A stretch of 64,000 bases of DNA from an uncultured Flavobacteriales bacterium. GTDB lineage: Bacteria > Bacteroidota > Bacteroidia > Flavobacteriales > Crocinitomicaceae. The position numbers were made by a program, and so were the translations under genes. The notes beneath the pieces are model-generated. The model was given only the letters and a program-made list of their open reading frames with translations, was not told the DNA's origin and did no database searches. The stretch's first letter is position 1. Each line of letters starts with the position of its first letter. The stretch spans positions 224,282 to 288,281 of the forward strand of contig CAMLRS010000004.1 of the NCBI GenBank assembly GCA_946482515.1, given 5' to 3'. Below, piece by piece: positions 17,801 to 57,800 of this stretch.

Positions 17801-17921
17801 TGGGCTGATTCACAGAGATACGAATACAGGGATGTGGATAATCCGGAAAGTGCTTGGAAGGCTAATTCATAGCCCGTTTCGTGATTATTCAGGCGAAACC
17901 TCTGATTTCATTGACTTCCCC

Positions 17922-33884: not shown

Positions 33885-33900
33885 TGTTTCACGTGGAACC
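33885..33900. promoter_or_regulatory. parS-like site 1
   Basis: TGTTTCACGTGGAACC, 16 bases, close to the canonical ParB site TGTTTCACGTGAAACA. It lies 3 bases past the mnmG stop codon. Two more copies lie upstream of mnmG. Confidence 0.75.
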
Positions 33901-33902
33901 GA

Positions 33903-35774
33903 TCAACGACCGAGATGAATCAACAAAATGGAAATATCACTTGGTGAAACACCACTTAATCGGGAAGCCTGTCCGATAGTTACCGGACGGATCTTTGTCA
34001 TCTTCTCCCGAGCCTCAATACTTAGGCTGGAAATCTTCCAGTAATCAACATCGGCTGGAATAGCCAGCTCTTCCAAACGGGCTAATTTCAAAGCCACTTC
34101 TTCTTCACGAGCAATGTAGCCTTCATACTTCAATAAGATCTCGGCCTGTTCAACAGCTTCAGCGTGTTCTTCGTTTAATTGCTCAGCCAGTTGTTTTACC
34201 GATTCGCTCATGGCTAATACATGGTCCATGGTAATATGTGGTCGTGCAATAACGGAAGCCAGTTTGACCTGCTGCGTTAGTGGAGAACTACCCACTTCGT
34301 TCAAAACCGGATTGGCGAGTTCAGGTGTCACACCTTCTTTACGCAATGCCGAAATCAATTCATTTGCTGCACGCACCTTCGTGTTCACTCTTTCCAGTGC
34401 TAAAGCATCCTGCATACCGAGCTCATAAGCTAAAGGTGTCAAACGAATATCAGCATTGTCCTGGCGAAGCAGAATGCGGTATTCCGCACGGCTCGTAAAC
34501 ATTCGATAAGGTTCCTGCGTTCCCTTAGTGATCAGATCGTCGATCAGGACACCAATATAAGCATCACTGCGACGGAGAATGAACGGCTCCTTATTGTTCA
34601 CTTTCAGGTGCGCATTGATTCCAGCCATCAGTCCCTGGCAAGCTGCTTCTTCATAACCGGTCGTACCATTGATCTGGCCAGCGAAAAACAAACCTTCCAC
34701 CAGCTTGGTCTCCAACGTGTGCTTTAGTTGAGTAGGAGGGAAGTAGTCATATTCGATGGCATAACCCGGACGGAACATTTTTGCCTGCTCAAAACCAGGA
34801 ATCGTACGCAATGCTTTCTGCTGGACTTCCTCCGGAAGGGAAGTTGAAAAGCCGTTCACATAAATTTCAACCGTATTCCAGCCCTCCGGTTCTACGAAAA
34901 TCTGATGTCTATCACGTTCAGCAAAACGGTTGATCTTATCCTCGATGCTAGGGCAGTAACGCGGACCTGTACTTTTAATCGCACCATTGAACATTGGTGA
35001 GCGGTCGAAACCTTCGCGCAGGTATTCATGGGTAATATCATTTGTATAGGTGATATGACATGGTCGCTGTTCAGCTAGAGGCTTTGTATCGCCAAAAGAA
35101 AACTTCGAAGGGTTCTCATCGCCATCCTGGACTTCCATTTTGGAATAGTCCAACGAACGACCATCGATGCGGGGTGGTGTTCCGGTTTTCATTCGGCCGG
35201 CTTCAAAACCGTAACCAACTAAATCTTCCGTGATACCGAAAGCAGCTTTCTCACCAACACGGCCACCTCCGAATTGTTTTTCACCCAAATGGATCAAACC
35301 ATTCAAAAACGTTCCATTGGTCAACACCACCGATTTACCATAAATAGGCAACCCGATTCCTGTTTTCACACCAAGCACACGATTGTTTTCAATGATCAGA
35401 CCGTTGCACATATCCTGCCAAAAGTCCACATACGGATTCCGCTCGAGCAGCAAACGCCATTCTTCTGCAAAACGCATTCTGTCATTCTGGGTGCGGGGAG
35501 ACCACATGGCCGGGCCTTTCGATCGGTTCAGCATCCGGAATTGGATTGCACTCAAATCGGAAACGATTCCACTTCCGCCGCCGAGCGCATCGATCTCGCG
35601 AACGATCTGACCTTTTGCCACACCACCCATGGCAGGGTTGCAGCTCATCTGTGCAATGGTATTCATATTCATGGTCACCAGCAGAACGCTGCTACCCATT
35701 TTAGCTGCCGCATTCGCCGCTTCACAGCCGGCATGGCCGGCACCAACCACAATCACATCGTATTCCTTCAGCAT
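33903..35774 (-). CDS. mnmG: tRNA uridine 5-carboxymethylaminomethyl modification enzyme MnmG (GidA)
   Basis: The product has 623 residues, normal for the family. With MnmE it adds a carboxymethylaminomethyl group to wobble U34 of several tRNAs. The FAD-binding motif opens the protein ([23 protein letters not shown]), followed by [33 protein letters not shown] and the C-terminal helical domain ([29 protein letters not shown]). The ATG at 35774 is preferred over two GTG codons just upstream. It is last of a minus-strand operon after ybeY, and is bracketed by three parS-like palindromes. mnmG lies near the replication origin in many bacteria. Confidence 0.97.
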
Positions 35775-35783
35775 CACCACGTA

Positions 35784-35799
35784 TGTTTCACGTGGAACA
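35784..35799. promoter_or_regulatory. parS-like site 2
   Basis: TGTTTCACGTGGAACA, the best of the three. It lies between ybeY and mnmG, 10 bases upstream of the mnmG start codon, so it occupies the ribosome-binding region. Confidence 0.78.
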
Positions 35800-35817: not shown

Positions 35818-36258
35818 CTACGATTTCAAATGTTTCACGTGGAACGTTCGGCGCTCAAGCATTTCATCCTCCTTCGAGCGCATGATTTGCTCATCTGATT
35901 CGGACTTATCCTTGTAGCCACACAGGTGGAGGAGACCATGAACACAAACGCGATGAAGCTCATCCTGGAATGAAAGACTCATTTCATTCGCATTGTCACG
36001 AACACGATCAACGCTGATAAAAAGATCTCCACTCACAACGGTTTCAACGGAATAATCAAAGGTGATGATGTCTGTGTAATAGTCGTGGTCGAGGTGCTCC
36101 CGATTCATTTCCAAAAGGTATTCATCGGAACAAAAGATCAGGCTCAGATCACCCAGCTCACGTGATTCGAGCACAGCAACATCCGAAAACCAGGCAAACA
36201 AAAATTCCGGAGTCACCTCCGGAATCTCATTGATATCTTCAAAATGCAGCTCTACCAT
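35818..36258 (-). CDS. ybeY: Endoribonuclease YbeY (16S rRNA maturation)
   Basis: The product has 146 residues from the ATG at 36258. It is a zinc metalloenzyme for 16S rRNA 3'-end processing and ribosome quality control. Family motifs: [20 protein letters not shown] and [11 protein letters not shown]. In E. coli the zinc ligands are HGxLHLxGYDH; here the third His is replaced by Asp (GYKD), as I recall from other Bacteroidota. The ATG overlaps the stop of the preceding ATPase gene (TGATG). The last codons (TFHVKH) are spelled by parS-like site 3. It precedes mnmG in the operon. Confidence 0.93.
35831..35846. promoter_or_regulatory. parS-like site 3
   Basis: TGTTTCACGTGGAACG lies within the last codons of ybeY. 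Three copies within 2 kb are far above chance for a 15-base core. Confidence 0.76.
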
Positions 36259-36694: not shown

Positions 36695-39600
36695 CTACTG
36701 TGTCCGGTTGAAGTATTCTCCTGCTTTATCCTTGTAGTACTTCGACAACATAGGATCTACAGCGCGAAGAATCTCGACTTGACCCAGCTTTTGTCGGTTG
36801 TACTCATCAAATCGAATAAGGTTACCATAATTCTTATCTTTTCCACTTTCAGATTCTCTTTTTTCCTCGAATCCGCGCTCCCTCAAAGCTTTCTCGCTTT
36901 CCAGCAAGCGTGTTAAAATGTCCTGCTGACGACGAAGCATCTCTGGACTGAAGTTTTTATTGATCAGGTCTTTTTCCTGTTGTTCGAGCTCTTTGATGAG
37001 CGGGTTCAGCGCATTTCCTTTGCCCTGACCTTCCTTGTTCATTTCATTACGCAGCTGCTCCAGACGCTGACGAATAGCCGTTTGTTGAGCCGCCATCTTC
37101 GCGATTTCCTTGTTGCCAAGACCCTGCATTCCTTGTCCTCCTTGACCCTGGCCAGGTTTATCACCCGGTTGCTTGCCACCCGGATTCGGGCCTTTTTTCA
37201 TTTGCTCGAGCTGCTGCTTCAGCATTTCCTTCATGTCCTGTGGCGACATTTCTCCACCAGGTTTTGGTTGTCCCTGACCACTGCCTCCCGGATTATTGCA
37301 AGAGCCATTTCCAGGCTGTTGCGCCTGTGCTTGCTGCTGCATACTTTGAAGGCTTTCATTCAACAGCAACGCCAGATTGTTGTAGCTAGTCATGACCAAT
37401 TGCTGGTGCTGGCCAAGCTGACGGCGCTCGTGCTCATCGATCTCGTCGACAATCATTCCGAAATTGGCGTTGATTTCCTTCAGCTCTTTATCGATAAACG
37501 TAGCAATCTTCGGCTGACGTTTAGCCAATGCAAGCAAGCTGTCCTCAACCACTTTTGTGTCGTCTATAATACCACGTTGTTTGCGCCCTAAACGACGGTA
37601 AGCCGGGTCCGTGTCTTTCACTTTCACGAAGGATTGCAGGTTTTCTTCCTGGCTAAAGCTTAATGACATCAGGTTCTCCAACAGCAGGCGAAGCAAGCCC
37701 ATATCTTCAGCATTCTGCTTTTGATTGGATTCTTGCTGCTGACTGTTTAGCTGCTCGGAAAGCTGCTTCATTTCATCGGCTGCCTGTTGTTGCTTTTCGC
37801 CGGCTTTACTCTTCTTACCTTTTTCCAATTGTTCGGAAGACTCACCCAGTTTCTGGTCGATCGATTCCTGCTGCTCTTTGAAATCATCCAGCTCCATCGG
37901 TCGCTCCAACTCTTCATTCAGCTTCTTCAACTCATTCAGATCTTCCTTGATTTCATCGAATTTCTTATCGATTTCCTTCTGTTGCTCCTTGGCTTTCTCT
38001 TCAGAAACCTGGTTCTTTTCAATATCCTTTTTCAGCTCTTCCTGCTCCTTGGCAAGCTCCTGCAACTCTTTTTCGATATCGTCGATCTTCTCGTTTACCT
38101 GCAAGCGTTTCAGGGATTCCAGCGTACGGTCGAGCTGCTGTTTCATTTCTTCTGTCGATTGATCGAGCTTTTCCGACTCTTCTTTCAGCTGATTCTGTTC
38201 GTTCTTACGCAACAATTCTTCGAGGTCTTCCAGCAGCTTCTTCAGCTCATCATCCATGACCTCTTTCATCAATTCTTCGATCAGCTCCTGTTGCTTGAGC
38301 AGCTCTTCGTCCATCTCTGAAAGCTGATTCTTTTCCTCTGTACTTTCCTGCAGCTTCTCCTGGATGGCTTCCATTTCCTGCTGCAGCTGTAGTTGTTCCT
38401 GCTGCAATTGCTGGATCTGTTCTAGGGTTTTGAAATCAGCTTTAGACTGGCTGTTCATCGATTTCTGCAAACGATCCACATCACGCTGGAACTTTTCTGC
38501 CTTGCGCAACATATCCTGTAACGCATTCTGAACGTCTTTCTGCACTTCATCGCGCTTCTCGTTCAGGTCCTGGAGCGTTGGCAATTCGTAAACAAAAGCC
38601 TGTGATCTGGTCACCTTGCTACCATTCACACCATCGTTGTCTGAAACCGTGAAGTAGTAAGAAATCTTGTCTTCCACATCCAGCTGCTCGCGACTGAAAT
38701 CGACCGTAAATACAAACTTGTCTGATGTGCCCGAAACGCTCTGCACACTCAAACTCTGACGGCGTTCCTTACCTTCTTTACTCTTAATAACGTAATGGAA
38801 TTTAAGGCTGGTCAAGCCATAATCATCGGAAACCATTCCTTCGAATGAGCGCACAGAAGCACGCAGACTATCTACTGCTTCGTTGACGAAAATCGTCGGG
38901 AAAGCGTCTTTAATGATCTTCAATTGCACAGAAGCCGTATCCGCTTTGGAAGTCACGGCATTCTTCATCACAAAACGCAGCTGTCCGGAAGACCGGTATT
39001 TCGCGCTGAACTCGGCCTGATCGGAAGGGAAGAAGCGGGTAGAATCGTTCCATAAGACCGCAATGCTTTTTACATTCCGCGCCGCCAGCGTCCAATTTAC
39101 CTGTGTGCCTTCCGGCAGATCCAGATCGGCGATATTGGAAACAATCTCGTCTTTCTTACCCAGGTATTTCGGATAATGCAATTCAGCCACGAGCTTTCCC
39201 AGCGACGATTTACCGATCACATTGATATGGAAATTATCTGAACGAATGTCTTCTGCTTCGAAATGAAAATCCGTAGAAGCTTTCATATTCTCGAAGGTAA
39301 AAGCCACCCGGTTTTTCCGCGTTTTCTTCATCAGGAAACGACCGCGATCGGAAACGATATAGGTGTTTTCCGGAATGTATTTACCGGTAATTTCTGCTTC
39401 AATGGTCACCGATTCACCTTCATCAATAGCGCCTGTATTGGAAACAACACGGAACGAAAACGGGGCCGGCTGAGCCAGCTCGTAGTTCATCACACTGGAA
39501 GAACCATCGACGAGCCAGGAAGGAACAAATACGCCAACAGCCAGGAAAGCCAATGCAACAGGGATCACATACTTCAGGTAACGTTTCGATTCCTGGTAGC

Positions 39601-40045
39601 GAACAGCATCAACAAATGCAACGGCCGAAAGCTCATTCGATCGCTGGGCCACACTTGCACGAAGCAGCTCGTAGCTACGATCATCCGGGTTGTTGACTTC
39701 ATTCAATTGAAGAGTATTCAACAAACGGTCGGAAACATTTGGAAAGAACGAACCGATAATGCTGGCAGCCTGTTTGCGGTCGATCCGCTTGCCAAAAGCA
39801 TACAGGTTCAATAACGGCTTGATGAAATAGCGACCGAGGATAAAACCATTCCCAAGGATGAAAACGATCAGCAGCACCAATCGGACGGTAGAAGAAAAAC
39901 GACCAAAGTATTCCAGGCCACTTACCAGCAACCAGGACGCGAGAAGAAAGCCGGTGAATACCAGCACTCCCTTAAGCATTTCATTCTTGTAATACTTCCG
40001 AATGAATGCATCAATCTGCTCTATTAAGCGATCGAAAGCTGACAT
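36695..40045 (-). CDS. DUF4175 family membrane protein with long coiled coil
   Basis: The product has 1116 residues. Three membrane helices lie near the N-terminus (~25-45, ~50-72, ~150-170: VIPVALAFLAVGVFVPSWL). A beta-rich periplasmic-type region follows (~185-480), ending with VYELPTLQDLNE. A very long Glu/Gln/Lys-rich coiled coil spans ~485-780, then a Gln/Pro/Gly-rich linker ~905-980 and a helical C-terminus. DUF4175 proteins are common in Bacteroidota next to mnmG and ybeY; their function is unknown. It is the first gene of the operon. Confidence 0.9.
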   Translation of the reverse strand: MSAFDRLIEQIDAFIRKYYKNEMLKGVLVFTGFLLASWLLVSGLEYFGRFSSTVRLVLLIVFILGNGFILGRYFIKPLLNLYAFGKRIDRKQAASIIGSFFPNVSDRLLNTLQLNEVNNPDDRSYELLRASVAQRSNELSAVAFVDAVRYQESKRYLKYVIPVALAFLAVGVFVPSWLVDGSSSVMNYELAQPAPFSFRVVSNTGAIDEGESVTIEAEITGKYIPENTYIVSDRGRFLMKKTRKNRVAFTFENMKASTDFHFEAEDIRSDNFHINVIGKSSLGKLVAELHYPKYLGKKDEIVSNIADLDLPEGTQVNWTLAARNVKSIAVLWNDSTRFFPSDQAEFSAKYRSSGQLRFVMKNAVTSKADTASVQLKIIKDAFPTIFVNEAVDSLRASVRSFEGMVSDDYGLTSLKFHYVIKSKEGKERRQSLSVQSVSGTSDKFVFTVDFSREQLDVEDKISYYFTVSDNDGVNGSKVTRSQAFVYELPTLQDLNEKRDEVQKDVQNALQDMLRKAEKFQRDVDRLQKSMNSQSKADFKTLEQIQQLQQEQLQLQQEMEAIQEKLQESTEEKNQLSEMDEELLKQQELIEELMKEVMDDELKKLLEDLEELLRKNEQNQLKEESEKLDQSTEEMKQQLDRTLESLKRLQVNEKIDDIEKELQELAKEQEELKKDIEKNQVSEEKAKEQQKEIDKKFDEIKEDLNELKKLNEELERPMELDDFKEQQESIDQKLGESSEQLEKGKKSKAGEKQQQAADEMKQLSEQLNSQQQESNQKQNAEDMGLLRLLLENLMSLSFSQEENLQSFVKVKDTDPAYRRLGRKQRGIIDDTKVVEDSLLALAKRQPKIATFIDKELKEINANFGMIVDEIDEHERRQLGQHQQLVMTSYNNLALLLNESLQSMQQQAQAQQPGNGSCNNPGGSGQGQPKPGGEMSPQDMKEMLKQQLEQMKKGPNPGGKQPGDKPGQGQGGQGMQGLGNKEIAKMAAQQTAIRQRLEQLRNEMNKEGQGKGNALNPLIKELEQQEKDLINKNFSPEMLRRQQDILTRLLESEKALRERGFEEKRESESGKDKNYGNLIRFDEYNRQKLGQVEILRAVDPMLSKYYKDKAGEYFNRTQ

Positions 40046-42128: not shown

Positions 42129-42199
42129 GGTCTCGTGGCCGAGCGGCTAGGCAGAGGTCTGCAAAACCTCGTACAGCGGTTCGAATCCGCTCGAGACCT
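42129..42199 (+). tRNA. tRNA-Cys (anticodon GCA)
   Basis: Acceptor arms GGTCTCG (42129-42135) and CGAGACC (42192-42198) pair fully, followed by a T discriminator. The anticodon stem GAGGT/ACCTC encloses the loop CTGCAAA with anticodon GCA (reads UGC/UGU, Cys). The T arm contains GGTTCGAATCC. The 3' CCA is not encoded, so it must be added after transcription. It has its own promoter and terminator. Confidence 0.95.
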
Positions 42200-43085: not shown

Positions 43086-43847
43086 TTACAGCATTTTGAT
43101 GCGATTGGTCAGCTCATCGCGGTAAGAACCTCCGATTGGAATGAGCTTGCGATCATTTTCCAGCTGCAGGTTCGGAAAGTCGATCGAAGAGATCTTGTCC
43201 ATGCGCACAATGAACGAACGGTGAACGCGGATGAATTGTTCGGCACCGAGCTTCGACTCGATATCCTTCATCGTGGAATGGATCGTATAACGTGTGTCGT
43301 TGGTGTTGATAACCACATAATCTTTCAGCGCTTCGATGAAGAAAATATCGGTCATGTTGAGCTTCACCAGCTTGCTGTTCGACTTCACGAAAATGAAATC
43401 GTGCTGTGTTTCACGCTCTTTGTTTTCCACCAGGGAATACAACATATCGCGCTCGCGCTCCACTTCCTGTTCCTTTTTGTGCTTGTAAAGCGCCATCTCG
43501 ATGGATGTGTGCAGATCGATCTCCTTGAACGGCTTCAGGATGTATCCGTAAGGCTCCGTTACCTTGGCCTTGGAAAGCGTCGCTTCGTCGGCATAAGCGG
43601 TGAGATAAATGACCGGAATGGCATAATCGGAGCGAACGATTTCAGCTGTCTGGATTCCATTCATTTCGCCTTTCAGCATGATGTCCATCAGCACGATGTC
43701 GGGCTGCTCGACAGCGAGGATTTCCAATGCTTTTTCTCCGGAAGGGGCTGCTCCTATGACATTGTAACCCAGCTTTTTCAAACTCGATTGTATATCTTTT
43801 GAAACGATGAATTCGTCTTCGACAACCAATACATTGGCCTTTATCAT
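43086..43847 (-). CDS. LytTR-family response regulator
   Basis: The product has 253 residues. A receiver domain fills residues ~1-120 with Asp55 in VLMD as the phospho-acceptor, plus the acidic pair E10/D11 and the conserved Lys in YILKPF. A LytTR DNA-binding domain follows (~150-250: IFFIEALKDYVVINTND, then QFIRVHRSFIVRMDKI). No histidine kinase gene lies nearby, so it is an orphan here. Such regulators bind direct repeats near promoters; targets are unknown. It directly borders the candidate replication origin. Confidence 0.94.
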   Translation of the reverse strand: MIKANVLVVEDEFIVSKDIQSSLKKLGYNVIGAAPSGEKALEILAVEQPDIVLMDIMLKGEMNGIQTAEIVRSDYAIPVIYLTAYADEATLSKAKVTEPYGYILKPFKEIDLHTSIEMALYKHKKEQEVERERDMLYSLVENKERETQHDFIFVKSNSKLVKLNMTDIFFIEALKDYVVINTNDTRYTIHSTMKDIESKLGAEQFIRVHRSFIVRMDKISSIDFPNLQLENDRKLIPIGGSYRDELTNRIKML

Positions 43848-44025
43848 AGGGTACGCTTTCGTTTGTCAAAGGTAGGAAAAAAACGGTCTTTCCTACGCGT
43901 CAATTTTCAGTGCATAGTGCTCACACTTCAAACGAAAGTACAACCTGCTTTTCATTTTCGCAAGGATCAGCGGATTTCAACCTTTTGCTAATAAGAAATA
44001 ATAAAGAAATTAATTTTAAAAAATT

Positions 44026-44053
44026 TTACTATTACTATTAAGGGTGTTCATAC
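44026..44053 (-). other. DnaA-trio-like array next to a degenerate DnaA box
   Basis: Read on the minus strand: GTATGAACA (degenerate box, 6 of 9 matches), CCCT, then TAATAGTAATAGTAA, five TA(A/G) triplets, followed by the AT block. This is the arrangement reported for basal unwinding systems (box, short GC spacer, trios of the form TA[G/A]). The match is good by eye but short and AT-rich, so chance is possible. Confidence 0.45.
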
Positions 44054-44111
44054 GTGTACAAAACATCCCCAAAATCCTTGGACAAACGAGTTATCCGGGT
44101 TTGAGGGCTAC

Positions 44112-44120
44112 TTATCAACA
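44112..44120 (+). promoter_or_regulatory. DnaA box with one mismatch
   Basis: TTATCAACA; one difference from TTATCCACA. Confidence 0.5.
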
Positions 44121-44164
44121 GCATTAAAAACCGAAGACGCCTGATTTAAAGGACCATTAAACGG

Positions 44165-44173
44165 TTATCCACA
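44165..44173 (+). promoter_or_regulatory. Perfect DnaA box
   Basis: TTATCCACA in the gene-free region. Confidence 0.7.
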
Positions 44174-44193
44174 GTCTTGTTAATTCGGTGTTA

Positions 44194-44202
44194 TGTGGAT
44201 AA
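44194..44202 (-). promoter_or_regulatory. Perfect DnaA box, reverse strand
   Basis: TGTGGATAA, the complement of TTATCCACA, 20 bases after the previous box. Confidence 0.7.
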
Positions 44203-44454
44203 AAAGAAGCACTAAAAGCACGTTAACAAATCTTAAAACCTGTGGGAAAGTCACCGGTAAAAACAGCAAACTTTCCATTGTCAATCCAATAATTAGAACA
44301 TATATAACGGAATATCGGATTCTGCAAGCTTTACTTATAAGTACTTCTCAACGCTTATTGACAATTAAAGCATTCAATGCGTGTATAAGTGTCCGGAACC
44401 GATAACTGATTATCAGTCGATTGAGACGGCGACTTTTGAAGTGATGTGCATATC

Positions 44455-44485
44455 TTGGTGGTTTTGTTGATAAGCGATACCTTTG
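44455..44485 (+). promoter_or_regulatory. rpiB promoter
   Basis: TTG (44455-44457), a 20-base spacer and TACCTTTG (44478-44485) fit the Bacteroidota consensus exactly. The ATG at 44504 is 18 bases downstream. A DnaA-box-like site sits in the spacer. Confidence 0.72.
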
Positions 44486-44503
44486 AAAGAAAAACGTCAA
44501 AAC

Positions 44504-44944
44504 ATGTCGAAAACGATTCCTATCGGGGCGGATCACGCCGGTTTCCAGTTGAAAGCTGTAGTTATTGAACACCTGAAATCGCTCGGGTATGAACCACACG
44601 ATTACGGTTGCTATTCGGAAGACAGCATCGACTATGCCGATTTCGGTCACCCGGTTGCCACGCATGTTGAAACACATCCCGGAACGCTGGGTATTGTAAT
44701 CTGCGGCAGCGGCAACGGCATCAACATGACGGTGAACAAACACCAGGGCGTTCGCGGCGCTTTGTGCTGGAATCGCGAAATTGCTGTTCTGGCGCGTGAG
44801 CACAACGACGCTAACATCCTCACTTTGCCAGCCCGTTTTGTGACCGAAGAGCAGGCGCTCGAAATGGTTACGGCATTTTTCGGAACGGCTTTCGAAGGCG
44901 GTCGTCACCAGCGCCGCGTTGAAAAAATTCCGGTTGGTTGTTAA
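44504..44944 (+). CDS. rpiB: Ribose-5-phosphate isomerase B
   Basis: The product has 146 residues, the usual size. It interconverts ribose-5-phosphate and ribulose-5-phosphate in the pentose phosphate pathway. Motifs: IGADHAGFQLK at the N-terminus (His in DHAG), GCYSEDSIDYADFGHPVA, and GIVICGSGNGINM with the catalytic Cys. The ATG at 44504 is chosen because the alternative at 44483 overlaps the promoter. A C-rich/G-rich repeat unit follows the gene. Confidence 0.95.
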   Translation: MSKTIPIGADHAGFQLKAVVIEHLKSLGYEPHDYGCYSEDSIDYADFGHPVATHVETHPGTLGIVICGSGNGINMTVNKHQGVRGALCWNREIAVLAREHNDANILTLPARFVTEEQALEMVTAFFGTAFEGGRHQRRVEKIPVGC

Positions 44945-44980
44945 TTCACCCGCTGCTTTTGAAAAAGACTAAAGTTTAAT

Positions 44981-45011
44981 CCTCCCCCTTAATCCTCCTC
45001 CAAAGGGGGAG
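44981..45011 (+). repeat. C-rich/G-rich hairpin repeat, single unit
   Basis: CCTCCCCCTTAATCC, then CCTCCAAAGGGGG. It ends 21 bases before the start of the M28 peptidase gene, that is, in its leader. Confidence 0.8.
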
Positions 45012-45031
45012 AAAGATACACTCCTTTATAT

Positions 45032-46489
45032 ATGTCCAAAAAACTACTCGCTGCAGCGTTGCTGATCGCCACCGGCGTTTCGGCACAGAAAAAAGACCTT
45101 ATTGCCGAATACAGTAAGTACATCGACACGGCAGACCTGCGGAAACATTTGACCGTGCTGGCCAGCGACGAATACGAAGGAAGGGAAACGGGCAAAAAAG
45201 GCCAGCAGCTCGCGGCGGCTTATATTCAGCAGTCGTTCAAAGAAGACGGTTGTTCGAAAGCGCCGGGCATGAGCAGCTACGAACAGTTTTTCGAGGTGGT
45301 TGAAACCACACCGGGCGGCGAGCTGAACTTCGGAACCAAATCCCTGGTGTTTAAAACCGACTATGTATACTTCGGTGCCAAGCAGCAGGTAAAATTCGAG
45401 AACCTCGAAATCCACACGCTGGAAGATTACGAGCGTTTTACCATTGAAAACGGTGTGCTCATCCATCCGATTGCCGGCATGGATATCCGCGCCGAGCTGG
45501 ACAAATTGCGCCGCATCGGTAAAAATGCAAAAGCCATTATCCTCGTTACACCGAATTACGAAAGCCTGTACGAATACCTGGAGCATTATGCCACTTCCAA
45601 ATCCATGCGACTGAAGACCGACAAGCCTTCTACCGAGCAACCGATTTTTGTGGTCCGCGCCGGCGCGTTGGACGGTGCGTTGAAAAAACCGTTCCGCTAC
45701 CTCCAGGGTTCCGGAAAAAAGAAAGTCAAAAAGAAAGCGACGATTGTGAACAGCTTTTCCGGCTGGATCAACAAAGACGAACAGGTACTGACCAGCTCCA
45801 ACGTTCTGGGTTATATTCCGGGAAGCGATCCTATCCTGGCGAAGGAAATCATTGTGATCACGGCGCACTACGACCACATTGGAATCGACAACGGCGTTGT
45901 GTTCAACGGTGCCGATGACGACGGAACAGGTACGGTGGCATTGCTGGAAATCGCCGAAGCATTTATGAAAGCCCGCAGGGAAGGAAACGGTCCGCGGAGA
46001 TCAATCCTGATCATGACTGTTTCAGGTGAAGAAAAAGGATTGCTGGGCTCCAGCTATTATGTCGATCATCCGGTTATTCCACTGGAAAATACCATCGCCG
46101 ACCTGAACATCGACATGATCGGCCGCAACGATATTGCGCACGAAAACAGCAACGATTACATCTACATCATTGGATCGAACATGATCAGTACCGATCTGCA
46201 CAACGCCAATGAGAAAGCCAATCAAACCTATACGCAGCTCCTGCTCGATTACAAATTCAACAGCAAAAACGACCCGAATCAGTTCTATTACCGCTCAGAC
46301 CATTATAATTTTGCGAAAAACGGCATTCCGAGCATTTTCTACTTCAGCGGGATCCATGAAGATTACCACCAGGCGACAGACGATATCGAGAAGATTATTT
46401 TCTCCAAAGTAGAGCGCGTTGCGAGACTCGTTTTTGCTACGGCGTGGAGTTTGGCGAATGAGACGAATCGTCCGAGACCGGATTATTGA
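45032..46489 (+). CDS. Exported M28-family zinc aminopeptidase
   Basis: The product has 485 residues. A signal peptide is clear (MSKKLLAAALLIATGVSAQ). The C-terminal half is a family M28 metallopeptidase: zinc ligands in TAHYDHIG (His279, Asp281), the second metal Asp in FNGADDDGTGTVALLEIAEAF, the general-base Glu and ligand Glu in VSGEEKGLLGSSYYVDHP, Asp in DMIGRND, and the last His in GIHEDYHQATDD. The ~150-residue segment before it carries a PA-like insert (LIHPIAGMDIRAELDKLRRIGKNAKAIILV). It should release N-terminal residues from peptides outside the cytoplasm; the specificity is unknown. A repeat in its leader may affect expression. Confidence 0.9.
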   Translation: MSKKLLAAALLIATGVSAQKKDLIAEYSKYIDTADLRKHLTVLASDEYEGRETGKKGQQLAAAYIQQSFKEDGCSKAPGMSSYEQFFEVVETTPGGELNFGTKSLVFKTDYVYFGAKQQVKFENLEIHTLEDYERFTIENGVLIHPIAGMDIRAELDKLRRIGKNAKAIILVTPNYESLYEYLEHYATSKSMRLKTDKPSTEQPIFVVRAGALDGALKKPFRYLQGSGKKKVKKKATIVNSFSGWINKDEQVLTSSNVLGYIPGSDPILAKEIIVITAHYDHIGIDNGVVFNGADDDGTGTVALLEIAEAFMKARREGNGPRRSILIMTVSGEEKGLLGSSYYVDHPVIPLENTIADLNIDMIGRNDIAHENSNDYIYIIGSNMISTDLHNANEKANQTYTQLLLDYKFNSKNDPNQFYYRSDHYNFAKNGIPSIFYFSGIHEDYHQATDDIEKIIFSKVERVARLVFATAWSLANETNRPRPDY

Positions 46490-46502
46490 TGTTGGATTGT
46501 TT

Positions 46503-46585
46503 CCTCCCTTGAGGGAGGATTAAGGAGGGTGGCTACACACGATTCGATTTTGCCACCCCTCTCGGTCTCCCCTCAAGGGGAGAAG
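46503..46585. repeat. C-rich/G-rich hairpin repeat, two units in opposite order to the copy at 42255
   Basis: The reverse-oriented unit (CCTCCCTTGAGGGAGG, then GGAGGGTGGC) comes first and the forward-oriented unit (GCCACCCCT, then CTCCCCTCAAGGGGAG) second. It lies between the convergent M28 and TlpA-like genes and may act as a bidirectional terminator. Confidence 0.8.
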
Positions 46586-46590
46586 TTAAT

Positions 46591-47811
46591 TCACTCAGCC
46601 AGTAGTGCCTCAATCAGCGCCTTGGTTTTTTCCACGTATTCGGTGTAGTAAGTGCCGGTTCCCGGTCCGTTGAAGCCCGTGTGAATGCGTTTCACCAATC
46701 CGTCTTTTCCAATGAAAATGGTGGTGGGAAATGAGATCACTTCGTTCAGCATAGAGAACTGTTCGGAAGCCAGGGCTTTATTCGCCTTTCCACCTACAAG
46801 AAACGTGAAGTCGAGATCGTGGCGGTTCTTCAGCCGAAGGATTTTTGCCGCCTGTTCTTCGAAGGTATCGGCTGCTTCGTAACCGATGGAAATGATCTCC
46901 AGTCCTTTGTCGTGGTATTGACTGTAAAGCTCCTTGTAGTATTTCGTTTCGTCGAGGCAGTTCGGGCACCAGGTTCCCATGATCTGGATGATCACTACCT
47001 TATTAAAGACATCCGGATTGGGAAAGGTGTAGCTGTTGCCCTGGATATCTTTCAGTGTAAAGCTCACCCGGCTGTTATCGGTTTTGAGCTGCGTGAGTGA
47101 ATCCGGATCGTGGAGCTGGAAAGCGTCGTTCCGGTTCGAAACCCAATTGGTCTGGTAATGATTGCCGCTGTAGAACGTTCCCTGAATAGCAGAGCCGGAA
47201 ACGGATCCCGTAATTAAAAAGGCGTGCGACCCGTCGAAGCAGGAAAGGTAGAAGGTGCTTTTTTCCACGGTTCCTTCCAGGAAGCGGTAATCGCCGGTCT
47301 CGGTGAGAAAGGTTCCGGTTACGCGGTTATTTTCCTGGTGAAAAATCCCTACGGCGGGTTCCTGGTCATCGGTTCCCGGGCTGAACCACGTTTCCCAGTT
47401 GCCGGAAAGGTTTACATCCGGAACAACGGTAAGGGCTTCAGGCTTTTTGGCGATAGCCGCTTCGAATGGAACGCGGTAATTGCCGGCTTTATTGAAATTG
47501 ACCCAATAACCTTTGATGAAGCGTTTTTTGCGTGTAACGAAACGCAATTCGGAATCGAAATTCGGAAACGGAACGACCAGCGTATCGCCTTCGCGTTTTT
47601 TTACTTTCAGCTCTATGCGTTCTTCGGCGTTATGGATAACCAGCAAACGTTGTTTATCCTTCTCTTCAACCGTTAACCGAACCGGCAATACGGTAGCCTG
47701 ATTCAGCTGCAATTGGGCAGTATATGTTCCGACTTTAAGCGGGAGTTGTTGCGCTGTGAGTGAGCAGCTGCACAGCAGGGCGGCAACAAAAGCCCTAGGA
47801 GAGAATGTCAT
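46591..47811 (-). CDS. Exported TlpA-like thioredoxin-fold protein
   Basis: The product has 406 residues with a signal peptide (MTFSPRAFVAALLCSCSLTAQ). The N-terminal ~240 residues form a beta-rich domain with no recognised family (a repeated KVGTYTAQLQL / TGTFLTETGDYRFLEG pattern). The C-terminal part is a TlpA/ResA-like redoxin: VFNKVVIIQIMGTWCPNCLDETKYYKELYSQY with the CPNC pair at Cys282/Cys285, then GLEIISIGYEAADTFEEQ and ISFPTTIFIGKDGLVKRIHTGF. It should act as a thiol-disulfide oxidoreductase outside the cytoplasm. Other partners are not in the window. Confidence 0.88.
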   Translation of the reverse strand: MTFSPRAFVAALLCSCSLTAQQLPLKVGTYTAQLQLNQATVLPVRLTVEEKDKQRLLVIHNAEERIELKVKKREGDTLVVPFPNFDSELRFVTRKKRFIKGYWVNFNKAGNYRVPFEAAIAKKPEALTVVPDVNLSGNWETWFSPGTDDQEPAVGIFHQENNRVTGTFLTETGDYRFLEGTVEKSTFYLSCFDGSHAFLITGSVSGSAIQGTFYSGNHYQTNWVSNRNDAFQLHDPDSLTQLKTDNSRVSFTLKDIQGNSYTFPNPDVFNKVVIIQIMGTWCPNCLDETKYYKELYSQYHDKGLEIISIGYEAADTFEEQAAKILRLKNRHDLDFTFLVGGKANKALASEQFSMLNEVISFPTTIFIGKDGLVKRIHTGFNGPGTGTYYTEYVEKTKALIEALLAE

Positions 47812-47889
47812 AGAGTTCCATCGATTGGAGCGAATTTACCTTTTTTCTTCGTTCGGTGTTTCGCCGGTGCAACCTTTTTCCTAAGTTGC

Positions 47890-48447
47890 ATGTCTAAAGA
47901 ATCAGCAAGTGCTATGGATGACAGAACATTGGTGATGGAATGCGCCAAAGGAAGTTCCCGGGCACAGCGAGCGTTGTTTGATAAATTTGCTCCCAAAATG
48001 CTGTCAGTGTGCATGCGTTACCTCCGGAATATGGAAGAAGCGGAAGACACACTACAGGACGGCTTTGTGAAGATCTTTCAGAAGATCGGTGAGTTCAAGA
48101 TGGAAGGTTCGCTTGAAGGCTGGATCCGGCGCATCATGGTCAATACGGCCCTGGACGTGCTCCGGAAAAACAAAAAGCTGCTCGGCGATACCCAGCTCGA
48201 CGATGTTTCCTATAAGGTAGCATTCGAAGACCACGGGTTTTCGGGCATGGACACCGATCATCTGCTGAAGCTCATCGAGAACCTCCCGGACGGTTACCGG
48301 GTGGTGTTCAACATGTTTGCCATTGAAGGCTACAGTCATAAAGAAATAGCCGACACGCTGGGAGTAACGGAGAATACCTCCAAATCGCAATATTCGCGTG
48401 CACGTGCTTTTTTACGCAACCAACTGGAAAGAATAGAAAGTGATTGA
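47890..48447 (+). CDS. ECF-type RNA polymerase sigma-70 factor
   Basis: The product has 185 residues. Region 2 is present (RALFDKFAPKMLSVCMRYLRNMEEAEDTLQDGFVKIFQKIG) and region 4 at the C-terminus (LPDGYRVVFNMFAIEGYSHKEIADTLGVTENTSKSQYSRARAFLRNQL). The acidic, short linker and lack of region 1 fit the ECF class. The next gene starts inside its last codons (GTG at 48440; overlap 8 bases) and has an anti-sigma-like N-terminus, so the pair is a likely sigma/anti-sigma unit. No promoter with a convincing match to the known autoregulated ECF pattern is seen. Confidence 0.93.
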   Translation: MSKESASAMDDRTLVMECAKGSSRAQRALFDKFAPKMLSVCMRYLRNMEEAEDTLQDGFVKIFQKIGEFKMEGSLEGWIRRIMVNTALDVLRKNKKLLGDTQLDDVSYKVAFEDHGFSGMDTDHLLKLIENLPDGYRVVFNMFAIEGYSHKEIADTLGVTENTSKSQYSRARAFLRNQLERIESD

Positions 48448-49324
48448 AAACGATAACATAAAAGACCTGTTCTCAAAAGGACTCGAGAACCATACTATGC
48501 CGGTACGGCCGGAAGTGTGGAACGGCCTGCAGGCTAAGATGGCTGCTGTGGGCGTTGCTTCCTCGGCGACTGCTGTCAAGGGTCTTTCCGCTCTGGCCAA
48601 ATGGATCATTGGCGGCGCGGCAACTTCGGCTGCCGTTGTTACCACCGTTGTGATCGTCAACAGCCAGGATGTGCAACCGAAGGAGCAGAAAACAACGGCT
48701 TCCGCTTCTACGCACCAGCCGGCTTCTTCAACAGAAACCGTTAACGCAACACAACAGGAGCAACCGGCTTCTTCAACATCCGGCGCACCAATCAGCGAAG
48801 AACACCAACAATCGGTGTTGCCTGGTAACATGGAACCGTCCTCTTCGGAGCCGATTGATTTCGGTCCTTGGCACTTTTCCCCATCGGAAAATGCCGTCGA
48901 TCCGAACAAGCATGTTGAACCGGTAAAAACAGCGCCGGCTCAAACAGCTCCTTCGCAAAGTGAACAGCAAGGTGAAGAACATCCGACAACGAACCCTACA
49001 CAGGCAAAAGATCCGGAAGTAAGGACCCCACAGACGGTTAACGAATCGAAGATCACCAAGATCCCGAACTTCTTCTCGCCCAACAACGACGGCGACAACG
49101 ATCAGTTCTATATTGAATCACAGCATCTGAACGACTTCTCGGTTACCTTCCTCGACGGACAGGGCAACGCCGTGTGGTCGTCGACAGATCCGTCCTTCAG
49201 CTGGGACGGCACTGACCGCAGCGGCGAACCGGTTGCGGCAGGTCGTTACATCTGCATGATCGTTGCCCGCGACACCAAAGGTGAGCTCATCAAAGAATAC
49301 AAATTCATCGAAATCCGACGTTAA
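48440..49324 (+). CDS. Putative anti-sigma membrane protein with T9SS type B-like C-terminal domain
   Basis: The product has 294 residues from the GTG at 48440, which overlaps the sigma factor gene by 8 bases. The first ~45 residues (NIKDLFSKGLENHTMPVRPEVWNGLQAKMAAVG) resemble the cytoplasmic N-terminus of Bacteroidota anti-sigma proteins. A membrane helix follows (~50-72, LAKWIIGGAATSAAVVTTVVIV), then ~130 residues of Ser/Thr/Gln/Pro-rich linker. The final ~90 residues are a CHU_C-type domain (ITKIPNFFSPNNDGDNDQFYIES, then WDGTDRSGEPVAAGRYICMIVARDTKG), as seen at the end of T9SS type B cargo. No signal peptide. The topology puts the C-terminal domain in the periplasm. The function is inferred. 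Confidence 0.78.
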   Translation: MIENDNIKDLFSKGLENHTMPVRPEVWNGLQAKMAAVGVASSATAVKGLSALAKWIIGGAATSAAVVTTVVIVNSQDVQPKEQKTTASASTHQPASSTETVNATQQEQPASSTSGAPISEEHQQSVLPGNMEPSSSEPIDFGPWHFSPSENAVDPNKHVEPVKTAPAQTAPSQSEQQGEEHPTTNPTQAKDPEVRTPQTVNESKITKIPNFFSPNNDGDNDQFYIESQHLNDFSVTFLDGQGNAVWSSTDPSFSWDGTDRSGEPVAAGRYICMIVARDTKGELIKEYKFIEIRR

Positions 49325-51803: not shown

Positions 51804-54800
51804 ATGAGATTAATGATGCACACAGACAAACCGCTGTTTAAGGCATTGAACGTGACGTTGCTTTACGCCATGTTGCTGAACAGCTTTGCACCGACGGCTT
51901 ATGCTGCAACTGCCACCAATTCCATCTTAGGAGGAGCGAGGGGGAGGATTACTCCGGTTTTTTCCATGCCCTCATCAGTGGAACAACCCATAGCTGTTGA
52001 GCCATTAGCTGATAAGCCAACTGAAAATAGAGCTATCGCCTCCGAACAGCCAACCGATCAGGCTGCTGTTGTAAAAAATCCGGAAGCAGGGATGGTTTCA
52101 TTAGCTGTAACGGCTGGTCCGGGACAGGGAGAAAGCTCCGGATTCTCCTTGGGATCGACAGATAACATGGTGGATAAATTCACCGGTGATTTCAGCTACA
52201 GTATTCCGCTGGCAGATGTGGAAGGCTATCCGATCGTTTTGAATTACAGCTCCAACATAGGCATGAACTCCGAAGCCTCCTGGGTTGGTCTGGGCTGGGA
52301 CCTGAACGTGGGCTCCGTTTCACGCGAAATGCGTGGTTTGCCGGATGAGTTCAACGGTGAGCAGACGATTAACAGGACGTTTAACCAATATAAAGACTCC
52401 ACAAAAGGCTTTAAAGCAGGTGTATTTGCTTCGATTGGTAAAGAGTATAAGAGTGGTTTCAAATATGTTCCGAGTGCACAAATAACAGCGCTGTGGGGCA
52501 AATACAACAACACCTATATAGGTTGGGGCAAAACCTTTGATTTCGGGTTAGGCGCCAGTATTTCTATCGGAGGTAACGATAAAGGCTTGTTTGTGGAGCC
52601 TTCATTTGGGATAGGCTATACTTCCGACTCCAAAAGAGGAATTGGTTTCAACCACAACATGGGAATAAGTGCCGGATTGGAGTCGGCTACCAATAACCGT
52701 GTTTCGACGGGATTCACTTTTGGTCGCAGCTTCAACTCACGGGCCGGCATAACTGCCCGTACTACCGGATTTGACATTTCAGCCGAGTACAATACGCCGG
52801 AAAGCTTTAAAACCCAGGGCAGAGCTTCGGGTGGATATGGTGCCTCTTCAACAGTTACTTATGGAACAGCTACTTCTGTTCCTGCAGTTCGTTTTAACGC
52901 GTATTCAGTGGAGAGAACAACCGGCTTAAGAGGTTACTACGGAGTTAAGAAAGGAGCGTATCAATTCCGGGCGGGTGTCATCACCAATTTCAATAATACA
53001 CTCGAGAATACAACAGCGCTCGGTCCGAATCAGCAGGTAAAGCAACCGGCATTGGGTTATTTCCACAGCGGCAAAAGACAGGCTTATCAAGCAATCGGCT
53101 CGCCAATGGGAATGGTATTACCCCTGATGGACTTTAACCGCAGCAATGACTACGAATTTTCTCAGAACATGGTCAATCTGCCGTTTTCCATTCAGACTTA
53201 TGACATTTTCAGAGCGAACGCAATGGGATTGGGAGCTACCTTCAGGGGAAGACGCCAGGATGTAGGAACCTATTACGATCCGACAACCACCAATCATTCT
53301 GACTTAACCGGTACGAGTACGACAGCAGGGGTTATTACAGAAAAGGTGGGAGTTTCAATCATACCAACTGTTGAGCTTTCCCTTTCCGGTTCGGATGGAA
53401 AAGCAGATGTTACTTCAGGCAATATGACCCTGAGTAGTGGCTCCAACGCGGTGGAATTTGAGCAGGAAGCTGCCGGGAACAACTTTGATGCAAAAGTTTA
53501 TTTCAAAGGTGTGGGTGAGCTTACTCCTGAAAGCATGACCGACTTTGACGCAATGGGTGCTACAGAGCCAACCCGGTTTGAAGTCGCCGAATCCGACGGA
53601 AAGAACGTGTTCCTGACCAGTACCATGTACGGGAAAAACACCTTCTCTTCTGTTATCAACAGCGGAACGATCAACCAGAACCAGGAATTGGTACGGGCGA
53701 CATTTTACGAGCCCTTTACGGCCGAACAATACGCAGCAAAGGAATCGCAATACAAGAGCTACCCTTACAATACGTTTACAGGAATGTCTACTACACCCAT
53801 TAATCGGGTGGGTGTGGGATCATCCAACGAATCCAATGCGGAAAACCATCTCAGTGCCGTCGAGGTTACCAATACCAGCGGAACGCGCTACGTATTCGGC
53901 ATTCCTGCCTACGACCTGCTGAGCTCTCAGACGAGCTTTTGTATCAGCGGTCTGACAGGAAGTAACGGAGTCGTAACATACGGTTCCACAGATAATACCA
54001 TTAATAACAGCAGAGGTTTGTCTCACTACTTCGACCAAACCGATGTTCCGGCCTATCCGCATTCCTTCCTGCTGACGGAAATGCTCAGCTCCGATTACAT
54101 CGACCGAACCAATGACGGTCCTACGCTTGATGATATCGGCAACTTTTACAAATTCAATTATACACGCGTTTACAGTGCCACGAACCCGTATCATTGGAAG
54201 TATCCGATGGGCGCAAACAAAGCTTTGATAAACCAGGGAATGCTGGGAACAGAGCTCGACGACATTGCTCACTACAGCTCCGGAAAAAAAGAAATCTGGT
54301 ACACGCACTCGGTAGAATCGCGCAACATGGTGGCCGAATTTTACCTTTCGGACCGCAAAGATGGCTATGGTGTAGATCCAACAACAGGTGCACTCAACAG
54401 CAGCCTTCCGTTAAAGCAGCTCGACAGCATCCGTGTTTATAACCTGTCGGAGCGGATAGCCAAAGGAGCTAATGCCGTTCCTTTGCAGATCATTGCTTTT
54501 GAATATTCGTATGAGCTTTGCAAGGAATTGCCTTCCAATATTAACGGAACCGGTGCGGCATCCGGAAAGCTGACCCTGAAAAAAATCCGCTCTTATTCCG
54601 GTTCTTCAACCGAAATGGGATTGTATACCTACGAGTTCACTTACGATGCCACTAACAACCCGAACTTCAGCTATAACAACAGCGATGCCTGGGGCAATTA
54701 CAAGCTCTCGGATCCGGCCAGGCCGAATGACTTGTTTCCCTATCCTTCCCAAAACCAAACCGATGCCGATGCTGCCGCAAAAGCCTGGAGGCTGATCAAA

Positions 54801-57800
54801 ATACAGACACCAACCAACGGGGTGCTGGAAATTGAATACGAAGCCGACAGCTATGCGACCGTTCAGGACAAACGGGTGATGAAACATATTGATGTAAAAG
54901 GATTGACCAACCTGGCGGACCTGGAAGAAATCCAGTCCAATACTACCTGGAACGGATCAACCCGTGTCTACACAAGCTTCCACAGTAATTTATCCTCCTA
55001 CAGTATTCCGGACCTGATGCCTTCCGAGTTCTATTTTGCACAGTTTGGCGGTCGACTGGAAAAGAAACAGGTGCCGAACAACGTGATCGTTTTCAAGCTC
55101 GACGGAAAAATCGCGGCACCGGACAAAGTAACGGCGGATTCTGTTCTGAAAGCCGACTATTTTACGGATATGGTTACCAACACCGTTTTAGATGAGCTGC
55201 TGGTAAAACTGCATGTGGATGTAAAAGGTACGATCAAAGAGCTGGTACCGACATTCAGTCGCATTACCAACAAATGGAGCGCCACACCGGTGATCGGCGT
55301 GATGCCGGAAGCTTCTCCGGGCGCTGGTTACGAATACGGCTATGTCGTTGTTGACCCGGCCCTGGTAGAAGAAGAAAGCAATAGTCCACAGGCATTTAAT
55401 AGTTTGCAAAAGTCTGTGCTGGAATTTATACGTCGCAACCTGCCGGATAAGCTTTATGGAACCTGTTCGACCTGTACGGCTAATCCGCTGCTTGATCAGG
55501 CTGTTGCCCTGGATCATGTTGATATCAACAAAGCGATGAATGCATTGGGATGGGGAACTCAGATCATTACCGATTACAGCTCTGTTCGATTATACATCGC
55601 TTCTAACAAAAAATACGGCGGCGGTTCACGGGTGAGCTCGCTGACCTACAAAGACAACTGGCAGGCGATTTCCACGGAATATGACGGTGTTTATACCTGG
55701 CGTTATGAATATCCTTCCCGTGATGCTGCTATGGGCAATGCATCTTTTGAACCGGGCGGCATGATCGATGAATGCCCGCTGTATCGTTGGGATACTTATA
55801 TGAATGTTGTGAAAGGTCTTCCGGATGAGACGAAATTCACACCGACACCCGTTACAGGGCTACTGTTCCCGACACCGGTTGTGGGCTATGAGCGCGTGAA
55901 AGTGAGCATTTCGGGAACGCCGAACCTGGGCTATTCCATCACGGAATTCCACACTTCCAGAACACACCCGGTGATTGAAAATAAGACAGCGATCGACAAA
56001 GCGTCGGAGACCCACCGTCCGAAAAACGTTCTGGCCGGTAAAACAACGGATCGTTACGGATTATCTCAGGGCTTTTTCATTCACACCAACGACTTCCACG
56101 GGAAAGCTCATCAATCGATGATCTACGACGTAGATGAAGCCGAAAACGCCCAGCCAGTGCTGCAATCGCGCTCAACCTACCGTTATGCGGAATCGGATGC
56201 CACCGTTCAGATGGCCGATCGCAAAGGTATTATTACCGATGAGCGGGTTTCCCTTGAATACGATTTGCATGCAGACAGCCGCTACATTGAAAACACGTTT
56301 GATTACATGGATTTAGGGGTCAGTTTCCGCCTTAAATTCATACCAGGGGTACCATTAGTTGTTGTTCCATATATTTTACCAACATTTAGTCTCAGCAGTC
56401 GTACGGAAGCCTTTTATTCCAATGCTTTCGTGAAACATCTGAATACTTCGGCTATCGTAACAGCCATTGAAACCGAAAGCTTCGGATCTGTTAACAGTGC
56501 TGAAAACATCGTTTATGACCGCTTTTCCGGAAACGTGATCCTGAGCAGTCTCCTGGATGAGTACAACGACACCCTGTATTCCCTGAGCTACCCGGCACAC
56601 TGGGGCTACCACGAGCTGCGTGACATTTCCGGGACGAAGACCAATCCGACCGTTTCCGTGACCATTACCTCGGGTATGATTGGATCAGGTACGGGGCCAT
56701 CTCCTTACAATGAGCTTTCACCGGGCGACGAGGTTCGCGTTACAACAATAGGTGGTACACCACCAAAGGTCTGGGTGGCCAAGCGTAATGCCGGCACCCC
56801 CCAGCAAACCCTGTATTTAATGCAAGCGGACGGAACGACTTATACAGGCGCGACAGGCATACACACGATACAGATTCTTTCTACTAACCGTGATAACCGT
56901 CTCAACGAAACCATGCAGTCGCTGGTGACGAAAAAATTACCACTTACAACAACCGGCGCACTTGCCATTCTTCAGGCTCCGACCGAAATTCTTTCCGCCA
57001 GTGCGGTGACCTATCGCGACCGGAATAACTTCAAATGCGGCAATGCTGACCGTGATGACAGCCCGGACAAGGACGGAGAAGTGGCTATCGGACAAACAGT
57101 GAATCCTTACCGATTTGGAGTTCGTGGCGACCTGATCATCGATGCACAATACGCCTGGCAATCAGAGCGGGTGAACAGCAGTCACGCTTATAAAACACGT
57201 TTCGACGGAACGTTTACCGACTACATGCCATTCTACCGCTGGGCAATAGACCTGCATCACCAGCAATGGGTCCGGATTTTCCATACCAGTCATCCAAACT
57301 ATACGGCCCACAATGCTGCCGGCGGCTCTGAATGGCGCAAATTAGGTGAAACGCTCGTTTTCGACCAATTCGGCAAGTTGTTGGAAACCAAAGACCAGAT
57401 CGAGGTCAGATCAGCCGTTCTCTACGGTTACGATCATCTGTTCCGATTGGTGCCGATTGCCCAGGCAGTGAATGCCCGTCAGCAGGAGATCGCCTTCGAC
57501 GGATTCGAAGACTATAGCTACCACAGTAACACGAGCGCAGGAATTACTAATACCGACCCGCACTTTAACTTCAAAGGGGTATCTCATGCAAGTGTTTCGA
57601 CAACGGTTCGTCACAGCGGATTGTATTCCCTTCGTGTAGATCTGTCGGAGACTGCCAGCAGGTCGAAAAATGCTGCCAACTCCTGTGATATTTCGTCCAA
57701 ATCCGACCCGACAGTGAACAGCTTTACGGTCGATTCCTGCAGCTGCATCAAGGATTTCGAGCCGACACCAGGCGATTATGTAATCGGAGCATGGGTTTAC

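Follow-up and report, generated by a model that had tools for sequence, protein, structure and literature searches.

The analysis of the window, by which we refer to the whole 64,000-base stretch of DNA from an uncultured Flavobacteriales bacterium, reveals a long intergenic gap between the gene of a LytTR-type response regulator (lytTR) and rpiB, in which several DnaA-box-like sequences are arrayed beside a strongly AT-rich block (Table 1). The two flanking genes are transcribed away from the gap, and the divergence of gene strands that the initial annotation had described therefore holds directly at this place; farther out it is only partial, as gltX and folB, to the left, run against it, and so does the redoxin gene to the right. 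Rfam and tRNA scans gave no match inside the gap, the only hit being tRNA-Cys at 42129. At 58.9-60.2 kb, an interval that at first seemed to be a larger gap was discarded, since it falls within a 1926-codon open frame that runs off the window. That frame (58223-64000, + strand, at least 1926 codons) adjoins another very long one (51804-58211, + strand, 2135 codons), for which a Pfam search returned no match. A 1116-residue protein encoded at 36695-40045 on the - strand, also without a Pfam match, stays beside gltX in several relatives.

Table 1. Features of the lytTR-rpiB gap and its surroundings, in window coordinates
Feature	Position	Strand	Remarks
Candidate oriC, whole lytTR-rpiB gap, 656 bases	43848-44503	.	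Box cluster, lowest GC, skew in relatives
AT-rich block, candidate DNA unwinding element	43989-44038	.	GC 0.08, the window's minimum over 50 bases
DnaA-trio-like repeat, TAC TAT TAC TAT TAA	44027-44041	+	Five of five TAN
GGG spacer and weak DnaA-box-like TGTTCATAC (box 44045-44053)	44042-44053	-	3 mismatches to TTATCCACA, counted by eye
DnaA-box-like TTATCAACA	44112-44120	+	About -390 from rpiB
Exact DnaA box TTATCCACA	44165-44173	+	About -339 from rpiB
Exact DnaA box, + strand reads TGTGGATAA	44194-44202	-	About -310 from rpiB
DnaA-box-like TTATTGACA	44355-44363	+	-149 from rpiB
DnaA-box-like TGTTGATAA, of TTATCAACA type	44465-44473	-	-39 from rpiB, within probable rpiB promoter
Probable rpiB promoter, Bacteroidota type: TTGG, 19 bases, TACCTTTG	44455-44485	+	Read from sequence
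rpiB, ribose-5-phosphate isomerase B	44504-44944	+	PF02502
LytTR-type response regulator	43086-43847	-	PF00072 and PF04397
parS-like ParB site, 1 mismatch	33885-33900	+	
mnmG (gidA)	33903-35780	-	Flanked by the three parS-like sites; 8.7 kb from rpiB
parS, perfect match to TGTTNCACGTGNAACA	35784-35799	+	
parS-like ParB site, 1 mismatch	35831-35846	+	

The initial annotation had proposed this gap as a candidate replication origin on the strength of an AT-rich block, two perfect DnaA boxes 20 bases apart on opposite strands and near-matches at 44112 and 44465, all of which were found as described. The 50 bases from 43989 have the lowest GC of the whole window, the runner-up elsewhere reaching 0.18, and this candidate unwinding element lies adjacent to the boxes. 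The clustering of the boxes exceeds chance: four boxes with at most one mismatch fall within 400 bases of the gap, while in 200 dinucleotide shuffles of the window the richest 400 bases held three boxes 4 times, one or two 196 times, and four never. Two exact boxes at most 60 bases apart occurred in none of the 200 shuffles, and the looser pattern TTATNNACA gave five boxes per 400 bases in the gap against a shuffle maximum of three. The gap is the sole 400-base stretch of the window with such a box density. Boxes with at most one mismatch are also numerous across the whole window (22, with 12.3 expected; reached by 0/100 shuffles), and a third exact box stands isolated at 17833-17841 on the - strand. 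The same intergenic gap holds the densest box cluster in the sampled portions of two related genomes, with five per 400 bases in about 1.5 Mb of G072 (next, three) and four per 400 bases in 0.9 Mb of G097 (next, two).

The rightmost box sits between the two halves of the probable rpiB promoter, which was called with what we assume to be the Bacteroidota promoter consensus, and a TA..TTTG-like stretch upstream of rpiB is visible in most of 25 aligned rows. Because of this placement, the predicted binding of DnaA at 44465 may affect the expression of rpiB.

The best seven relatives of the RpiB protein in the genome collection carry the labels Fluviicola (three), Crocinitomicaceae (two), Flavobacteriales (one) and bacterium (one), and it is from these labels that we take the family name Crocinitomicaceae. 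RpiB was also searched against 150 genomes from the G002 family (Fluviicola record L002), of which 134 matched at E ≤1e-30. In the nearest relative, G125 (L086), RpiB is 96% and the response regulator 100% identical. G072 keeps the gene order and strands of the window for 14 of 19 query genes, from the DUF2207 gene via mnmG, gltX and lytTR to rpiB, and the gap between lytTR and rpiB measures about 660 bases in L001, L002, L003 and L005. Relative to the folB-gltX-mnmG block, the lytTR-rpiB-M28-redoxin-sigma block (window 43086-49324) has the reverse orientation in L001-L003, L005 and G097 when set against the window and G072, which amounts to a small inversion at the origin.

Conservation of the boxes was examined in 72 distinct regions of 560 bases upstream of rpiB, drawn from the window, the 20 best RpiB loci, 30 loci of the G002 family and 34 further stretches, after removal of regions that were too short or identical; near-identical ones were retained. 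These regions hold 202 TTATNNACA boxes, whereas 200 shuffles gave 25.4 +/- 5.2 and no more than 41; the best 7-base window of offsets takes in 31 boxes, as opposed to 4 or fewer after shuffling. These numbers are descriptive and carry no probability since the shuffles ignore relatedness. Relative to rpiB, a box is present at -390 +/-4 in 32 regions (the other 40 lack it), at -39 +/-4 in 24, at -336 +/-4 in 19, at -308 +/-4 in 16, and at -323 and at -149 +/-4 in 8 each. Base by base, the boxes of the window are identical to those of G125 at 45/45 positions, against 79% identity over the 611 gap bases outside the boxes; the corresponding figures are 38/45 and 60% for L088 (G072), and 37/45 and 57% for L087. 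Related species thus share the boxes and their location, though not every relative does: over the 680-700 bases before rpiB, loose boxes are absent from L109, L110, L112, L114, L253, L258 and others. A pair pattern, TTATYNACA-N42-47-TTATYNACA, was also tried as an origin marker. Its only match in G072 is the gap (control 0); it is missing from G097 (control 1) and G061 (control 2), and in G009 it matches another place (control 1), outcomes by which it is no general marker.

The position of the gap on the chromosome was investigated by GC skew, the check that the initial annotation had suggested, in relatives that have the same genes next to rpiB. Within the window itself, the skew falls, being mostly negative, to about 40 kb and is then flat, not positive, rightward. 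In G097 (contig of 4,606,342 bases), 40 stretches of 20 kb display a clean two-arm pattern, whose best fit places the origin at 4.04-4.14 Mb and the terminus at 1.75-1.85 Mb. When 4.03-4.15 Mb was tiled, the cumulative curve was lowest at 4.110 Mb and almost equally low at 4.095 Mb; with the start of rpiB at 4,108,850, the sampled minimum is no more than about 15 kb from this gene. In G072 (contig of 4,551,443 bases), 60 stretches, one of them shifted to cover rpiB, give an origin at 4.46-4.52 Mb and a terminus at about 2.2 Mb; this best fit misses rpiB by 105-165 kb, and its 5-95% bootstrap range runs from -515 kb to +438 kb relative to the gene. The tiled curve of G072 drops to about 4.35 Mb, stays flat past the start of the record to about 0.02 Mb and is lowest at about 4.49 Mb, with rpiB (4,355,345) at the left edge of this broad flat minimum; the final drop before the plateau is a single 5-kb bin at 4,345,001. 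Third-position skew in G072 places the origin at 4.24-4.28 Mb for genes on the + strand and at about 0.94-1.0 Mb for those on the - strand, and gene-strand bias, discordant with it, at about 3.6 Mb. In both genomes, none of 5000 permutations of stretch order reaches the observed difference between the two arms. The skew hence backs the gap closely in G097 and only broadly in G072, where rpiB merely borders the minimum.

These results bear on the reading in which the boxes form a DnaA regulatory or titration site, or DnaA-controlled promoters of rpiB and lytTR, with the true origin elsewhere in the region. The datA and DARS loci of E. coli are regulatory or titration sites of this kind. One conserved box does lie within the probable rpiB promoter, and the distance of the best skew fit from rpiB in G072 would agree with such a reading. 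Against it stand the lack of an equal box cluster in the window and in the sampled parts of G072 and G097, the presence of the window's lowest-GC block in the gap itself, and the closeness of the skew minimum to the gap in G097, and we regard it as improbable.

The parS-like cluster that had been placed 8-10 kb to the left of the gap consists of the three sites around mnmG, identified with TGTTNCACGTGNAACA, which we take to be the parS consensus. The proposed survey of further parS copies was carried out in relatives and upheld the association: perfect sites lie 8-12 kb from rpiB in five of six, namely G072 (three sites, 8.1 kb), G061 (11.1 kb), G015 (11.4 kb), G097 (11.6 kb, with a second site 660 kb away) and G002 (two sites, 11.7-11.8 kb), while no perfect parS was found in G009. 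This neighbourhood invites a comparison with Mariniflexile litorale (PMC11278836, main text) and Algorimicrobium (PMC12843772), two Flavobacteriaceae in which Ori-Finder 2022 placed oriC at or next to mnmG, GC skew agreeing; the text of PMC11278836 is at odds with one of its figure legends, in which mnmG is marked as ter. An origin directly beside mnmG would occupy the same broad neighbourhood as the gap, and with 8.7 kb between mnmG and rpiB in the window, skew alone cannot separate the two positions. The boxes speak against mnmG: the window holds no box with at most one mismatch between 29850 and 41090, and the dense cluster sits at rpiB in both G072 and G097. In G097, moreover, mnmG is found on the opposite side of rpiB and the boxes remain with rpiB. 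Unlike in the two published origins, the boxes and AT-rich block here are thus at rpiB, not at mnmG, and an mnmG-side origin appears very unlikely for this organism.

The claim that the origin would not lie beside dnaA was borne out in all four relatives with chromosome-sized contigs. With dnaA taken as the best PF08299 match and distance as the fraction of the contig treated as a circle, the two genes are separated by 0.37-0.42 of the chromosome in the case of rpiB and dnaA: 0.415 in G072 (dnaA at 2,466,446), 0.402 in G097 (1,352,992), 0.38 in G061 (1,189; contig of 4,633,577 bases) and 0.37 in G009 (1,281). A second PF08299 match, below the cut-off, occurs at 3,658,315 of G072. In G072 and G097, the two genomes in which skew was sampled, dnaA is nearer to the skew maximum, or terminus, than to the minimum. 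The DnaA proteins of G125, G072 and G097 carry the segment DHATVLHA, which we presume to be the box reader. An origin beside dnaA, as in many bacteria, is suggested by the G061 and G009 records, which begin close to dnaA, a common convention for genome records, but it can be practically discounted given the remoteness of dnaA from rpiB and from the skew minimum and the finding of only 0 or 1 loose box at each of six dnaA loci of about 3 kb. As these two records start about 1.2 kb before the C-terminal domain of dnaA, their position 1 is not the inferred origin.

From left to right, the gap presents the AT-rich block, the TAN repeat, GGG, the weak box and then the boxes at 44112, 44165, 44194, 44355 and 44465. 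This arrangement recalls the basal unwinding system (BUS), which consists of a DnaA box, a spacer and DnaA-trios according to PMC8287927: the AT-rich block, repeat, GGG and box-like site appear in the expected order and orientation, the latter derived by us from the 3'-GAT-5' description in that source. The pattern of three to eight TAN trios, 2-5 bases and TGTNNAT, which was written post hoc, has one match in the window against a shuffle mean of 0.06. Of the 72 regions, 46 have a looser core, TATTA[AG]N(2-3)TGT[TG]NAT, between -440 and -490 relative to rpiB. Across these 46, the window's included, the four trios outside the core have their middle A, from far to near, at frequencies of 0.04, 0.63, 0.59 and 0.26, the last being the value for the third trio of the repeat; in shifted frames, the corresponding values are 0.63, 0, 0.04 and 0.02, and 0.52, 0.33, 0.17 and 0.28. 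The TAN repeat is thus kept only in part among relatives. The BUS rule, re-coded here as a DnaA box with at most two mismatches no more than 16 bases from at least three NAN trios, gave no candidate at 44027-44053; elsewhere in the gap it gave candidates at 44165 (-) and 44380 (+), whose trios are mostly non-TAN. In contrast to the published system, the adjoining box here has three mismatches, beyond the single-box rule, and the trios are partly kept. Because of the weak box, the failure of the BUS rule and the partial conservation of the outer trios, the reading of 43989-44053 as a putative trio-type unwinding module is held as plausible but unproved.

Taken together, the sequence elements of the gap, which recur in many relatives, and the skew and parS sites observed in relatives support the gap as a replication origin, and we conclude with high confidence that it is the chromosomal oriC of a Fluviicola/Crocinitomicaceae-like bacterium. 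We infer that DnaA binds the gap, that the DNA is unwound there and replication initiated, and that the chromosome of the window acts like those of its relatives. In the mechanism we propose, DnaA would occupy both exact boxes (44165 and 44194) and, cooperatively, the weaker ones at 44112, 44355 and 44465; the complex would reach the weak box at 44045-44053 and run along the TAN repeat at 44027-44041. The AT-rich block would then melt and the helicase would load for two forks, after which the new origins would be handled by ParB bound at the parS sites that surround mnmG, 8-10 kb away.

Several known origins provide points of comparison. The oriC of E. coli has an AT-rich unwinding side, then a box in the TGTGGATAA orientation, and then boxes both ways; the gap follows the same order from the AT-rich side through a TGTGGATAA box to boxes of mixed orientation, but has fewer recognisable boxes and other neighbouring genes. 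An oriC remote from dnaA is already known in Bacteroidetes, where PMC4755523 calls the arrangement common, as the initial annotation had also held for Bacteroidota. The origin of the first Prevotella intermedia chromosome resembles the gap in having multiple DnaA boxes at a GC-skew transition away from dnaA; for the gap, a comparison across relatives has also taken in the rpiB/lytTR neighbours, the parS sites and the box spacing. In Blattabacterium, neither dnaA nor boxes were found (PMC2768785). Searches of a full-text literature with few subscription papers gave no report of an rpiB-side origin or of its box array.

The wider reach of this arrangement was investigated in genomes labelled Flavobacteriaceae, whose 30 distinct regions upstream of rpiB hold 94 boxes against 13.2 (largest 23) after letter shuffling, the best 9-base windows being at -505 (12 boxes) and -60 (10 boxes). 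Same-strand pairs of boxes 54 bases apart occur in 3 of these 30 regions, and L034, L038 and L074 are among the box-enriched loci. The core TATTA[AG]N(2-3)TGT[TG]NAT is absent from these regions except in L063, where it lies at another offset. Perfect parS sites are found 19-40 kb from rpiB in G151-G154, and the distance between dnaA and rpiB, as a fraction of the chromosome, is 0.30 in G151, 0.47 in G152 and 0.20 in G153. The skew of G151, from a noisy sample of 20 stretches of 5 kb, is negative at 0.67-1.06 Mb, mixed at 1.11-1.36 Mb, where rpiB lies (1.135 Mb), and positive at 1.55-2.12 Mb, which is compatible with an origin near rpiB and not decisive. The box enrichment, the parS distances and the remote dnaA make an rpiB-side origin in Flavobacteriaceae plausible rather than shown.

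Such findings lead to a broader proposal, which we offer as speculative and somewhat doubtful: across Flavobacteriales, oriC might be tied to rpiB by a fixed box array with one box in the rpiB promoter, by which initiation would be coupled through DnaA to a gene of the pentose-phosphate pathway, and dnaA might be held near the terminus in Crocinitomicaceae. If true, dnaA would gain in dose towards the end of the cycle, which inverts the classical arrangement. For the organisms studied here, the results supply a testable oriC position in a group of Bacteroidota for which some records merely start near dnaA, and the conserved box array offers a means of seeking the origin in relatives whose genomes are fragmented. 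The distance of about 0.4 of the chromosome between the origin and its initiator gene, dnaA, would make the two separately variable, which bears on the timing of initiation. The feature is an ordinary one, now placeable on the chromosome and open to dissection.
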